Shown piece after piece: positions 7,495-35,538 of a DNA stretch of 64,000 nt. Every line of letters begins with the position of its first letter. Position 1 is the stretch's first letter. This stretch comes from Clostridia bacterium (GTDB taxonomy: Bacteria; Bacillota; Peptococcia; DRI-13; UBA5745): the NCBI GenBank assembly GCA_018434325.1, contig JAHDPO010000051.1, positions 1 through 64,000 on the forward strand. Direction: 5' to 3'. Below the pieces are notes generated by a model. That model had not been told where the DNA came from, searched no databases, and worked only from the letters and a program-made list of their open reading frames with translations. A program made the position numbers and the translations under genes.

Positions 7495-7593
7495 AGCAGC
7501 ATTTAAGGGAAAAGTGCCGGGGGTTAAGGAAAAAGCAAGCTATGACCTTAGCAACGCGGGGACCCTGAAAAATTTGCTCAAGTTTCAGCCTTT

Positions 7594-7745
7594 TGCGCAA
7601 AATTGCAAGTTTAAAGTGTCCTTGACATGGGGTACACATCGACTAACGCCACTTATCGGCCGTTTTTGGTTGTATTTAGTGTTGGATTCAGTATCAACCC
7701 GCTATTTTGAAGGAGCGGCACACTTTAAACCTGCAATTTTGCGCA
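7594..7745. repeat. MITE-like element, copy 1
   Basis: A 152-bp element bounded by 26-bp terminal inverted repeats at 7594-7619 and 7720-7745. The left repeat begins TGCGCAAAATTGCAAG, and the two ends differ at one position. Flanks show a possible TTT duplication. The interior shares GTATTTAGTG and CGCTATTTTG with the copies at 27745 and 35399. It occupies most of the 367-bp gap between the formate channel and fchA and codes for nothing convincing. Confidence 0.85.
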
Positions 7746-7861: not shown

Positions 7862-8485
7862 ATGCTGGAAAAGAGCTGTCTGGAATTTATTGACGTACTG
7901 GCTTCGGCAGAACCGGTGCCCGGCGGCGGCGGCGCTGCCGCTTATGCGGGGGCCTTGGGTGTAGCTTTAGGCAGCATGGTAGCTAACCTGACTGTGGGCA
8001 AAAAAAAGTATGCGGCAGTTCAGGAGGATATAGCTGTTATCCTGGATAAAGCCGCCGGCCTGCAAAAAAGGCTGGCAGACCTGGTGCAGCGGGATGCCGA
8101 GGTTTTTGAGCCCTTATCCAAGGCTTACGGCTTGCCGAAAGAAACGACGGAGCAGCTGCAGCTGCGGAATCAGGTGATGGAAGAAGCCCTTCTGGCCGCC
8201 AGCCTGGTGCCCTTGGAGATCATGGAGCAGGCCTACGAAGGATTGCTGCTTCACGCCGAGTTGGCGGAAAAAGGCAGCCGTCTGGCCGTCAGCGATGTGG
8301 GAGTAGGCGTGCAAATGCTGAGGGCGGCTATTCTGGGGGCGGCCATGAATATTTTTATCAATGTGAAGTTTATGGAAGACCGCCGGCAGGCCGAAGAAAT
8401 CCGGGAAAAAGCCGAGAAGCTGATTACCAGAGGAGCTGCCTTAGCCGATGAGATTTACCGCAAGGTGGAGGAGGCTATCCGATGA
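7862..8485 (+). CDS. fchA: Methenyl-THF cyclohydrolase / formimino-THF cyclodeaminase family
   Basis: A 207-aa, mostly helical cytoplasmic enzyme of the FTCD_C/FchA family. The characteristic start LEFIDVLASAEPVPGGGGAAA (residues 6-26) and GSMVANLTVGKKKY are present. In clostridia the stand-alone protein hydrolyses methenyl-THF to 10-formyl-THF. The ATG at 7862 has a GGGGGTGGG site; the in-frame ATG at 7799 would add 21 unrelated residues. The stop overlaps the folD start by 4 bp (ATGA), indicating coupled translation. It supplies the activity that FolD here seems to have lost. Confidence 0.93.
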   Translation: MLEKSCLEFIDVLASAEPVPGGGGAAAYAGALGVALGSMVANLTVGKKKYAAVQEDIAVILDKAAGLQKRLADLVQRDAEVFEPLSKAYGLPKETTEQLQLRNQVMEEALLAASLVPLEIMEQAYEGLLLHAELAEKGSRLAVSDVGVGVQMLRAAILGAAMNIFINVKFMEDRRQAEEIREKAEKLITRGAALADEIYRKVEEAIR

Positions 8486-9333
8486 GCGTCATACTAAAGG
8501 GAGCCGATGTGGTAAAGGAAATGAATGAAGCCATGATGGCAGAGCTGGCGTTACGTACCGCCGACGGCCTGGCTGTCCCCAAACTGGCTATCGTCAGGGT
8601 TGGCGAGCGGCCCGATGATCTGGCTTATGAGCGGGGGGCTGTCAAACGCTTTGCCAATATTGGCCTGCGCACAGAGCTCTATGCTTTTGCTGCCGAGATC
8701 AGCCAGGAGGATTTCCTGGCCGCTTTCCGGCAAATCAATGCTGATCCCGATGTTCACGGCATATTGGTGTTTCGGCCGCTGGCGCCACAGATCGATGACC
8801 GGCTGGTTATTGAAGCCATCGATCCTGCTAAAGACGTTGACGGCATCAGCCCCGTCAATATGGCTAAAATATTTGCCGGCGACGACAGCGGTTTTGCTCC
8901 TTGCACAGCGGCGGCAGTCGTGGCCATCCTCGATCATGCAGGCATCTCATTAAAAGGCAAGCGGGTGGCAGTAGTGGGCCGTAGTTTGGTTGTGGGCAAG
9001 CCCTTGTCCATGCTGCTTTTGGCCAGGGACGCCACCGTGACGCTTTGTCACAGCAAGACCCTGGATCTGCCCGCCGTCTGCCGGGAAGCCGATATTCTGG
9101 TAGCCTGCGTAGGCAAAGCAAAAATGCTGGGAGTCGAATACGTCCGGCCGGGAGCTGTCGTTATCGATGTGGGCATCAATGTTGACGAAGAGGGCAATCT
9201 TTGGGGCGATGTGGATTTTACCGCAGTAGAGGGTATAGCCGGCGCTGTTACGCCGGTGCCCGGCGGCGTCGGCACGGTGACGACTTCGATTTTAGCCAGG
9301 CAGCTGATGAAGGCGGCGGCAAAAGGCCGTTAG
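8482..9333 (+). CDS. folD: FolD-type methylene-THF dehydrogenase, probably lacking cyclohydrolase activity
   Basis: FolD normally oxidises methylene-THF to methenyl-THF and then hydrolyses it. The 283-aa protein has both domains: PAKDVDGISPVN (115-126), the nucleotide-binding VVGRSLVVGKPLSMLLL (about 162-178) and the C-terminal TPVPGGVGTVTTSIL. The Y-x-x-x-K-x-K active site reads Y49-E-R-G-A53-V-K55: the first lysine (E. coli Lys54, human Lys56) is alanine. The usual LVQLPLP is LVFRPLA, so the active-site glutamine is phenylalanine. D120 is kept. In characterised enzymes the lysine and glutamine are needed for cyclohydrolase but not dehydrogenase activity. The overlapping fchA gene would compensate. 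Confidence 0.93.
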   Translation: MSVILKGADVVKEMNEAMMAELALRTADGLAVPKLAIVRVGERPDDLAYERGAVKRFANIGLRTELYAFAAEISQEDFLAAFRQINADPDVHGILVFRPLAPQIDDRLVIEAIDPAKDVDGISPVNMAKIFAGDDSGFAPCTAAAVVAILDHAGISLKGKRVAVVGRSLVVGKPLSMLLLARDATVTLCHSKTLDLPAVCREADILVACVGKAKMLGVEYVRPGAVVIDVGINVDEEGNLWGDVDFTAVEGIAGAVTPVPGGVGTVTTSILARQLMKAAAKGR

Positions 9334-9440
9334 AGCCAGGGGCTTTGAGGCGTGGCGCTTGGCAGTGGCTTCATAGTGATGGTTTGTGGCAGTGACTTGT
9401 GGCAGTAGCTGGTTCCTGGGGGCTCCTCAGGTGTGCAAAA
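9334..9440. other. Non-coding stretch after folD with degenerate GGCAGT repeats
   Basis: No gene is visible. Degenerate TGGCAGT units recur between 9358 and 9410. Together with the cloverleaf element and the bidirectional terminator that follow, this fills the 472-bp gap between folD and the convergent malic enzyme gene. Confidence 0.5.
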
Positions 9441-9568
9441 TTTGAGGTTGTGCACTATGCTATTCTGCCTGCGCCTTTAGCGCAGTGGCAATCAAGAATT
9501 GCCAGATTAAAATATGAAATATTTTAATCGCAGAATAGTATTACTTTGTTTTTTGCACATTTTTGAGG
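9441..9568. mobile_element. Small insertion-like element with a perfect cloverleaf (four-way junction) core
   Basis: A 114-bp unit flanked by a 7-bp direct repeat TTTGAGG (9441-9447, 9562-9568), which looks like a target duplication. TGTGCA near the left end and TGCACA near the right end are inverted. The core folds without unpaired junction bases: closing stem CTATTCTGC/GCAGAATAG (9460-9468 with 9530-9538, extendable to 12 pairs), arm 1 CTGCGC/GCGCAG (loop CTTTA), arm 2 TGGCAAT/ATTGCCA (loop CAAGA), arm 3 GATTAAAATAT/ATATTTTAATC (loop GAA). Loop sizes exclude a normal tRNA. A non-autonomous mobile element is the best guess; a structured RNA is the alternative. Confidence 0.6.
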
Positions 9569-9648
9569 TAGGACGTTTTCTTCGCCGGATCAAGCCTGCT
9601 AATAGTTGAAAATCATTCTCAAAGCCGGAGGAAAGAATTAAGCGGTAT

Positions 9649-9805: not shown

Positions 9806-10978
9806 CTAAGCTCTGGCCACGCCGCTTTTGATGGCGGCCTGGGCTACGGCGGCAGCCACCGCTTTGCTGACCCGGGGATCAAAAGCTGTGGGCATGATAA
9901 AATCGGCGTTAAGCTCTTCGGCCGATACCAGATCCGCTATTGCCTGAGCGGCGGCGATTTTCATCTCGTCATTGATATCGCTGGCCCGCACGTCCAAAGC
10001 GCCCCGGAAAACGCCGGGAAAGGCCAGGACGTTGTTGATCTGATTGGGGAAATCGCTGCGGCCGGTGCCCACCACAGCAGCCCCGGCCTCCTTAGCTTCA
10101 TCGGGGAAGATCTCGGGTGTAGGATTGGCCATCGGAAAGAGGATGGCGTCTTTAGCCATGGTCTTGACCATGTCCTTGGTGAGGGTGCCGGGGCCGGAGA
10201 CGCCGATAAAAACGTCGGCGCCAGCCAAAACGTCAGCAAGGCTGCCTTTTTTCATCAGCTTGTTGGAAATGGCGGCCATTTCCTGTTTTTCGGCATTGAG
10301 GCCTTCCCGGCCGGCATAAATGGCTCCGGCCCTGTCGCACATCACCACATCCTGCAGTCCTACAGCCATCAACAGCTTGATAATCGCCACGCCGGCCGCC
10401 CCGGCGCCGCTGGTGACTACACGGATGTCTTTGATGTCTTTGCCCACCACCTTCAGAGCGCTGATCAGGGCGGCTAACGTGACGATGGCGGTGCCGTGCT
10501 GGTCGTCATGGAAAATCGGAATATCGCAGCGTTCTTTGAGCTTGCGTTCAATTTCAAAGCAACGGGGAGCGGAGATATCCTCCAAATTGACGCCGCCAAA
10601 GCTGCCGGCCAGGAGGGTTACCGTATTGACGATTTCCTCCACATCCTTTGAACGGATGCAGAGGGGGATGGCATTGACGCCGCCGAATTCCTTGAAGAGG
10701 ACACACTTGCCTTCCATTACCGGCATGCCGGCTTCGGGGCCGATATCCCCCAGGCCTAAAACAGCGGTGCCATCGGTGACTACAGCCACCATATTGCCCC
10801 GTCCGGTCAGCTGGTAACTAAGCTCCGAATCTCTTTGGATGGCCAGGCAGGGCGCCGCCACCCCCGGCGTGTATGCAATGCTTAGCTGTTCCTTATTGGT
10901 CACCGGTGCTTTGGAAACGATATCAAGCTTGCCTTTCCATTGGGCATGCATTTTCAGAGCTTCCGTTGAGTAATCCAT
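9806..10978 (-). CDS. NAD(P)-dependent malic enzyme (short bacterial type)
   Basis: It decarboxylates malate oxidatively to pyruvate and CO2. The 390-aa length fits the short bacterial malic enzymes. Motifs: YTPGVAAPCLAI near residue 33, DGTAVLGLGDIGPEAGMPVM near 70, FHDDQHGTAIV near 155, and the Rossmann sequence VTSGAGAAGVAIIKLL near 185. An AAGGAGGT site lies 5-6 bp upstream on the minus strand. It is transcribed away from the decarboxylase beta-subunit gene, with which it may cooperate in C4-acid to pyruvate conversion. The bases just past its stop (9720-9805) are a degenerate GTGCTTCGGCCTCG-like repeat. Confidence 0.93.
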   Translation of the reverse strand: MDYSTEALKMHAQWKGKLDIVSKAPVTNKEQLSIAYTPGVAAPCLAIQRDSELSYQLTGRGNMVAVVTDGTAVLGLGDIGPEAGMPVMEGKCVLFKEFGGVNAIPLCIRSKDVEEIVNTVTLLAGSFGGVNLEDISAPRCFEIERKLKERCDIPIFHDDQHGTAIVTLAALISALKVVGKDIKDIRVVTSGAGAAGVAIIKLLMAVGLQDVVMCDRAGAIYAGREGLNAEKQEMAAISNKLMKKGSLADVLAGADVFIGVSGPGTLTKDMVKTMAKDAILFPMANPTPEIFPDEAKEAGAAVVGTGRSDFPNQINNVLAFPGVFRGALDVRASDINDEMKIAAAQAIADLVSAEELNADFIMPTAFDPRVSKAVAAAVAQAAIKSGVARA

Positions 10979-27671: not shown

Positions 27672-27744
27672 TATTGATTGACGCAGGGCATATCTGCGTC
27701 CAACGCCAACTTTTCGGTGATCCGGTCAGCAGAGAACAATTTTT

Positions 27745-27884
27745 TGCGCAAAATTTCAAGTTTAAAGTGTCCGGACACCAGTTATCGGCTGTATTTGGCT
27801 ATTTTCTGATGTATTTAGTGTCGCGTTCAGAAAATGACCGCTATTCTGGAGGGACAGCACACTTTAAACTTGAGATTTTGCTCA
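27745..27884. repeat. MITE-like element, copy 2
   Basis: A 140-bp element with 26-bp terminal inverted repeats at 27745-27770 and 27859-27884, beginning TGCGCAAAATTTCAAG. The interior has GGCTATTTTCTGATGTATTT and ATGACCGCT, shared (in opposite orientation) with copy 3. With the preceding terminator and following riboswitch it fills the gap between rplQ and gcvT. Confidence 0.85.
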
Positions 27885-27986: not shown

Positions 27987-28021
27987 ATTGATAAGAAATA
28001 AAAGAATATGGGTCGGATGAT

Positions 28022-28258
28022 GGTTTTCTGGAGACGCCGCAGCTTGCGGGACCGAAGAGGAAAGCCGTATGAGTCAGCATACGGCGAAGCTTTCAGGTAA
28101 AATGTACAGAAGCCGGACGATTTCCTGGAAAGCCCCTGATTAGCAGCAGCAGTCGGGCGGCGCCGAAGGAGCAAGGGCAGGGGGCCTCAAAGCCCCGGCA
28201 GCCTCAAGGGGGCGGGCCCGAATCTCTCAGGTAGGATTAGATTCTTGATACAGGAGGA
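28022..28258 (+). ncRNA. Tandem glycine riboswitch
   Basis: Two consecutive glycine aptamers. The first has the core GGACCGAAGAGGAAAGCC and the 3' element CGAAGCTTTCAGGTAAAATG, ending in the P1 partner ACAGAAGCC. The second has GCGCCGAAGGAGCAAGG and CCCGAATCTCTCAGGTAGGA, ending near ATACAGGAGG. Its place ahead of gcvT fits the known role: glycine binding switches on the cleavage system. Confidence 0.93.
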
Positions 28259-35393: not shown

Positions 35394-35398
35394 CGAAA

Positions 35399-35538
35399 TA
35401 TACAAAATTGCAAGTTTAAAGTGTGCTTTTCCTTTGAAACAGCGGTCATCTCCTGATTGAGACACTAAATGCAGCGGATGAATAGCGTCTTATTGGGGAG
35501 CGGATGTTTCGAACACTTTAAACTTGCAATTTTGCTAG
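35399..35538. repeat. MITE-like element, copy 3 (opposite orientation)
   Basis: A 140-bp element with 26-bp terminal inverted repeats at 35399-35424 and 35513-35538. The ends contain CAAAATTGCAAGTTTAAAG and its complement. AGCGGTCAT and ACACTAAAT in the interior are the complements of ATGACCGCT and ATTTAGTGT in copy 2. It ends 2 bp from the yitT stop codon. Confidence 0.85.

Follow-up and report, generated by a model that had tools for sequence, protein, structure and literature searches.

The cloverleaf that we analyzed in a stretch of 64,000 nucleotides from a Clostridia bacterium (contig JAHDPO010000051.1; hereafter the window) appears to be one half of a larger transposable element. In all likelihood, this element is a MITE of approximately 170 bp with the ends TACTAATCTGC/GCAGAATAGTA, built from two diverged, inverted cloverleaves, which inserts at TNA and is served in trans by a DDE transposase. 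It probably represents a new MITE superfamily, whose mobilization in trans is probably due to a DDE transposase with IS5/IS1031-like target preference. Such a superfamily in Clostridia, recognizable by TACTAAT ends and a TNA target, is apparently undescribed; no description of cloverleaf or TACTAAT elements was found in the literature. A MITE-like mobile element had already been proposed in the initial annotation, and it is supported by numerous copies, by empty sites and by duplicated targets. However, its boundary had to be redrawn: the duplicated sequence is TNA rather than TTTGAGG, and a complete element comprises two cloverleaves. That a transposase or resolvase recognizes the cruciform, as was also envisaged there, is conceivable.

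Within the window, the type-A cloverleaf unit occupies positions 9457..9541 of the plus strand, as delimited by a match (9457-9541) to R1, a covariance model built from A units. The four-way junction had been described with a 9-bp closing stem and arms of 6, 7 and 11 bp, and both sequence and coordinates of this description are right. The closing stem pairs 9460-9468 with 9530-9538 and, if one G.T wobble is accepted, reaches 12 bp (9457-9468/9530-9541). Three arms follow: arm 1 (9469..9485, paired as 9469-9474/9480-9485) is a G+C-rich hairpin of 6 bp that has 7 bp in most copies, arm 2 (9486..9504, paired as 9486-9492/9498-9504) is the 7-bp hairpin TGGCAAT/ATTGCCA, and arm 3 (9505..9529, paired as 9505-9515/9519-9529) is an A+T-rich hairpin of 11 bp. 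No base at the junction is left unpaired. Comparison of inner and outer ends identified the 5' side of the stem, ATGCTATTCTGC (9457..9468), as an inner-type end of the complete element, while the 3' side, GCAGAATAGTAT (9530..9541), is an outer end, whose terminal inverted repeat stops at 9540. The right target-site copy, assigned by the TNA rule from 39 elements, is TTA (9541..9543). On the left stands CTA (9455-9457), which is consistent with a damaged left end. Since an inner-type end with CTA stands on the left, we conclude that this is a solo unit which lacks its left, B half. Chance formation of the fold had been judged very unlikely, and our calculations agree: RNA folding of 9441-9568 gave -48.5 kcal/mol (z -6.8), whereas 200 dinucleotide shuffles averaged -26.2 (sd 3.3) and never equalled the native energy; the minus strand folds at z -7.5. 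The cloverleaf is located between two convergent genes, encoding a FolD-type protein (8482-9333, +) and a malic enzyme (9806-10978, -).

The heptamer TTTGAGG, formerly taken for the target duplication, is present at 9441 and 9562. However, the pair is not significant, because TTTGAGG occurs seven times on the plus and five times on the minus strand of the window and because 25% of trials with random 60-nt flanks also yielded a shared exact 7-mer. Furthermore, BLAST of 9420-9580 revealed that the part common to the copies is the cloverleaf only, while the flanks with TTTGAGG are not conserved. The true edges of the element fall inside the TTTGAGG pair, and the duplication is found at the base of the stem as TNA. 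At chance level and beyond the conserved edges, TTTGAGG was ruled out as target duplication.

With the same query, 46 BLAST matches (copies and fragments) were obtained in the element's own genome (G000). About 40 units of the window's type (A) were found there, together with a second unit type, B, which has the same ends and different arm sequences. B and A are often joined in inverted orientation through GGCATATATGC, resulting in the element of approximately 170 bp, and TACTAATCTGC...GCAGAATAGTA form the terminal inverted repeats of composites and singles. If the two-cloverleaf model is applied to copy L142, all planned positions except one pair, and about 24 of 170 bases stay unpaired. The elements range from 40 to 197 bp, lack coding capacity and include derivatives such as a single hairpin of 49 bp and forms of 110 bp in which one arm is enlarged. 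Solo units mostly possess one B-type and one A-type end. Since such hybrid ends are expected when a unit is deleted between similar ends, we regard solo units as deletion derivatives; judged by these ends, solo cloverleaves, the window copy included, probably arise by this route. Orthologous sites in G004, the second species of the genus, differ in the units retained: at L112/L148 A was kept in G000 and B in G004, and at L043/L143 A stands alone in G000 while G004 has the pair. In G000, the contigs C3, C8, C25, C30, C32, C34, C48, C50, C64 and C65 end in or near elements. As many contigs start or end at elements, the assembly probably breaks there, and the elements may account for numerous contig breaks in this draft assembly.

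The target is a 3-bp TNA, usually TAA or TTA, which is duplicated. When TACTAATCTGC...GCAGAATAGTA are taken as the edges, identical TNA trinucleotides were found on both flanks of 23 out of 39 elements (11.2 expected from shuffling), and the middle base was equal on both flanks of 31 (16.4 expected); none of 10,000 shuffles reached either count. Some copies are without a clean duplication. At orthologous sites of G004 the element is absent and a single TTA is present, for example AATATTACAT at L078/L161, which together with L109/L165 and L073/L167 is among the cleanest empty sites. Several others are rearranged and not clean, and the window locus has no orthologous match in G004. Empty sites, proposed by the initial annotation as a check, therefore exist, yet they carry a single TTA and TTTGAGG is not what was duplicated. 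ORFs of at least 100 aa contain none of the 52 copies, and intergenic copies are mostly situated between co-directional genes. At the level of genome comparison, the element is demonstrably dispersed and inserts at intergenic TNA with a 3-bp duplication. Beside the empty TTA site orthologous to L073, L167 (G004 C4, about 137829-137987) harbors another insertion, GTGCTTTGTGTCCACTAAAAG...CTTTTAGTGGACGCAGAGTAC.

A covariance-model search for multiple copies had been suggested as well, and with R1 it delivered 90 matches in G000 (both strands counted) and 11 in the congener G004; there was no match in the other 23 of 25 genomes of the order. The exact B-end pattern led to a Ruminococcus-labelled MAG with hairpin MITEs of its own, approximately 103 bp long, with the same ends and mostly with TNA duplications. 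Such ends occur in 12 of 150 genomes comprising this MAG and its relatives, while the reversed pattern gave essentially no matches. Elements of 188-191 bp in G180, a listed relative of G040, likewise comprise two units in inverted orientation; their arm sequences are different, and TAA is duplicated. R1 matches the G180 units over the full length (E down to 3.5e-8), hitting the right unit on one strand and the inverted left unit on the other. In terms of architecture, the likeness of G180 elements and R1 reflects homology or else strong convergence. BLAST gave no match in viral contigs, phages or plasmids, and three viral pattern matches lacked a partner end. TACTAAT ends with TNA duplications and different interiors were also observed in a 159-bp element with several hairpins (L238 330-488, G116) and in hairpin forms of 59-160 bp (L241-L246, G081).

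The initial annotation had staked its proposal on copies in related genomes and on compensating base changes, and both are present. Of the cells in the G000/G004 composites, 95.2% are paired; both sides have changed in three pairs, and the covariation score exceeded all 500 shuffles, which ignore relatedness. The corresponding values for the G180 elements are 94.5% and four pairs. Pairing vanishes when the partners are slid. The outer pair of arm 2 shows a U-A/C-G double change in other copies. Alignment A2 alone gave weaker covariation. One might take these compensating changes in both lineages, the strong fold and the intergenic placement, mostly between co-directional genes, as signs of a mobile structured RNA (regulatory or retro-copied), with the cloverleaf as its functional form. 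However, the complementary strand folds equally well, the window locus has no Rfam match, related elements gave only sub-threshold microRNA-type matches, and terminal repeats and target duplication indicate DNA transposition. Consequently, we consider an RNA to be most unlikely.

If the element is a MITE, its arms might still be functionless, a mutational by-product kept perfect by quasi-palindrome correction. This alternative fits our reading of what the element is and competes only on the function of the hairpins. The arm-3 loop occurs in either orientation among the copies (GGA/TCC, alignment A2), and L031 (80-164) has an arm-2 half where an arm-3 half belongs. Both features suggest template switching at the hairpins, which could yield paired changes without selection, and each family has only 3-4 pairs with compensatory changes. 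In contrast, a comparable hairpin series with different arm sequences recurs in a distant genome, which suggests constraint. Functionless arms are thus a possibility to be taken seriously, although we lean against them.

Returning to the MITE moved in trans, we infer from the TNA rule a DDE transposase of IS1031-like preference. Encoded elsewhere, it would recognize the ends and insert the element at TNA, as does the IS1031 group of IS5, which prefers TNA with a 3-bp repeat (PMC12016507); PIF/Harbinger elements target TWA (PMC4482050). In such a scenario the hairpins would anneal the two ends of the very short element when single-stranded, and template-switch copying across them would help to keep the arms perfect. 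The hairpins may represent helpful folding or a by-product. That the folded single strand itself, with seven hairpins or two four-way junctions joining the ends, is the transposase substrate, and that architecture instead of arm sequence is conserved across Clostridia, seems improbable to us. An autonomous copy would have its ends 0.8-3 kb apart and a transposase in between; no such arrangement was found in G000, in G004 or at the end positions that were listed for 150 relatives of G040. Two end-like pairs in G180, 1.5-1.9 kb apart, enclose ordinary genes, and inspection of the gene that two composites flank on C65 showed a signal peptidase-like ORF; these candidates were dismissed. The transposase repertoire of G000, probed with two families, contained no match to DDE_Tnp_1 (PF01609). 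The missing parent weighs little, because the assemblies are drafts. Non-autonomous families often have no surviving parent.

A different mobilizer is conceivable as well. Inverted paired hairpin units look like BIMEs, and G000 has one Y1 transposase gene, so that the element might be of the REP/BIME type, in which a Y1 (HUH) transposase (RAYT or IS200/IS605) would act on hairpins in single-stranded DNA and thereby spread inverted palindromes. However, the sole Y1 protein is a single IS200-type TnpA on C49, a contig without cloverleaf match, and the TNA duplication sets the element apart from Y1 elements, which are not known to duplicate their target on insertion. We therefore rejected a RAYT/IS200 mobilizer and regard this origin as very unlikely.

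Besides the cloverleaf, the window contains three copies of a second family of small palindromic repeats (7591-7743, 27742-27882, 35396-35536), one of which folds at z -4.8. The inverted ends of this family lie around GCAAAATTGCAAGTTTAAAGTGT/ACACTTTAAACTTGCAATTTTGC. Sequence related to this family adjoins element L085 and matches many places in G004. A glycine riboswitch aptamer (Rfam RF00504, 49.4 bits) was detected at 28018-28119, approximately 140 bp downstream of one second-family copy.

Taken together, the interior of the MITE is almost wholly paired, and the two-cloverleaf plan occurs in two separate lineages with different arms, providing a concrete test case for the question whether DNA secondary structure aids the transposition of very short elements. 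Among known systems, integron attC sites, where recombination takes place on folded single-stranded DNA, offer a conceivable analogy; our element shows TNA duplication and terminal repeats instead of cassette arrays. BOX/RUP-type pneumococcal repeats are likewise non-coding and intergenic, and BOX resembles our element in the modular gain and loss of internal parts, whereas RUP is associated with IS630 and has TA as its target. Palindromic units in inverted pairs, intergenic and multicopy, are shared with REP/BIME elements mobilized by RAYT, but these differ from the four-way cloverleaf units with target duplication and terminal repeats, and no RAYT was found in G000. In contrast to IS5-family (IS1031 group)/PIF-Harbinger MITEs, the element is accompanied in its genome by neither a DDE_Tnp_1 gene nor an autonomous relative, and its interior consists of two cloverleaves (up to seven hairpins) with no recognizable IS remnant. 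Its ends, TACTAATCTGC (TACTAAT), also differ from GAACCTGTC of ISLrh, the one IS1031-group member compared, by eye, which starts with GAACCTG (PMC12016507). Nevertheless, it resembles these MITEs in being short, non-coding, intergenic and multicopy, with terminal inverted repeats and a 3-bp TNA/TWA duplication.
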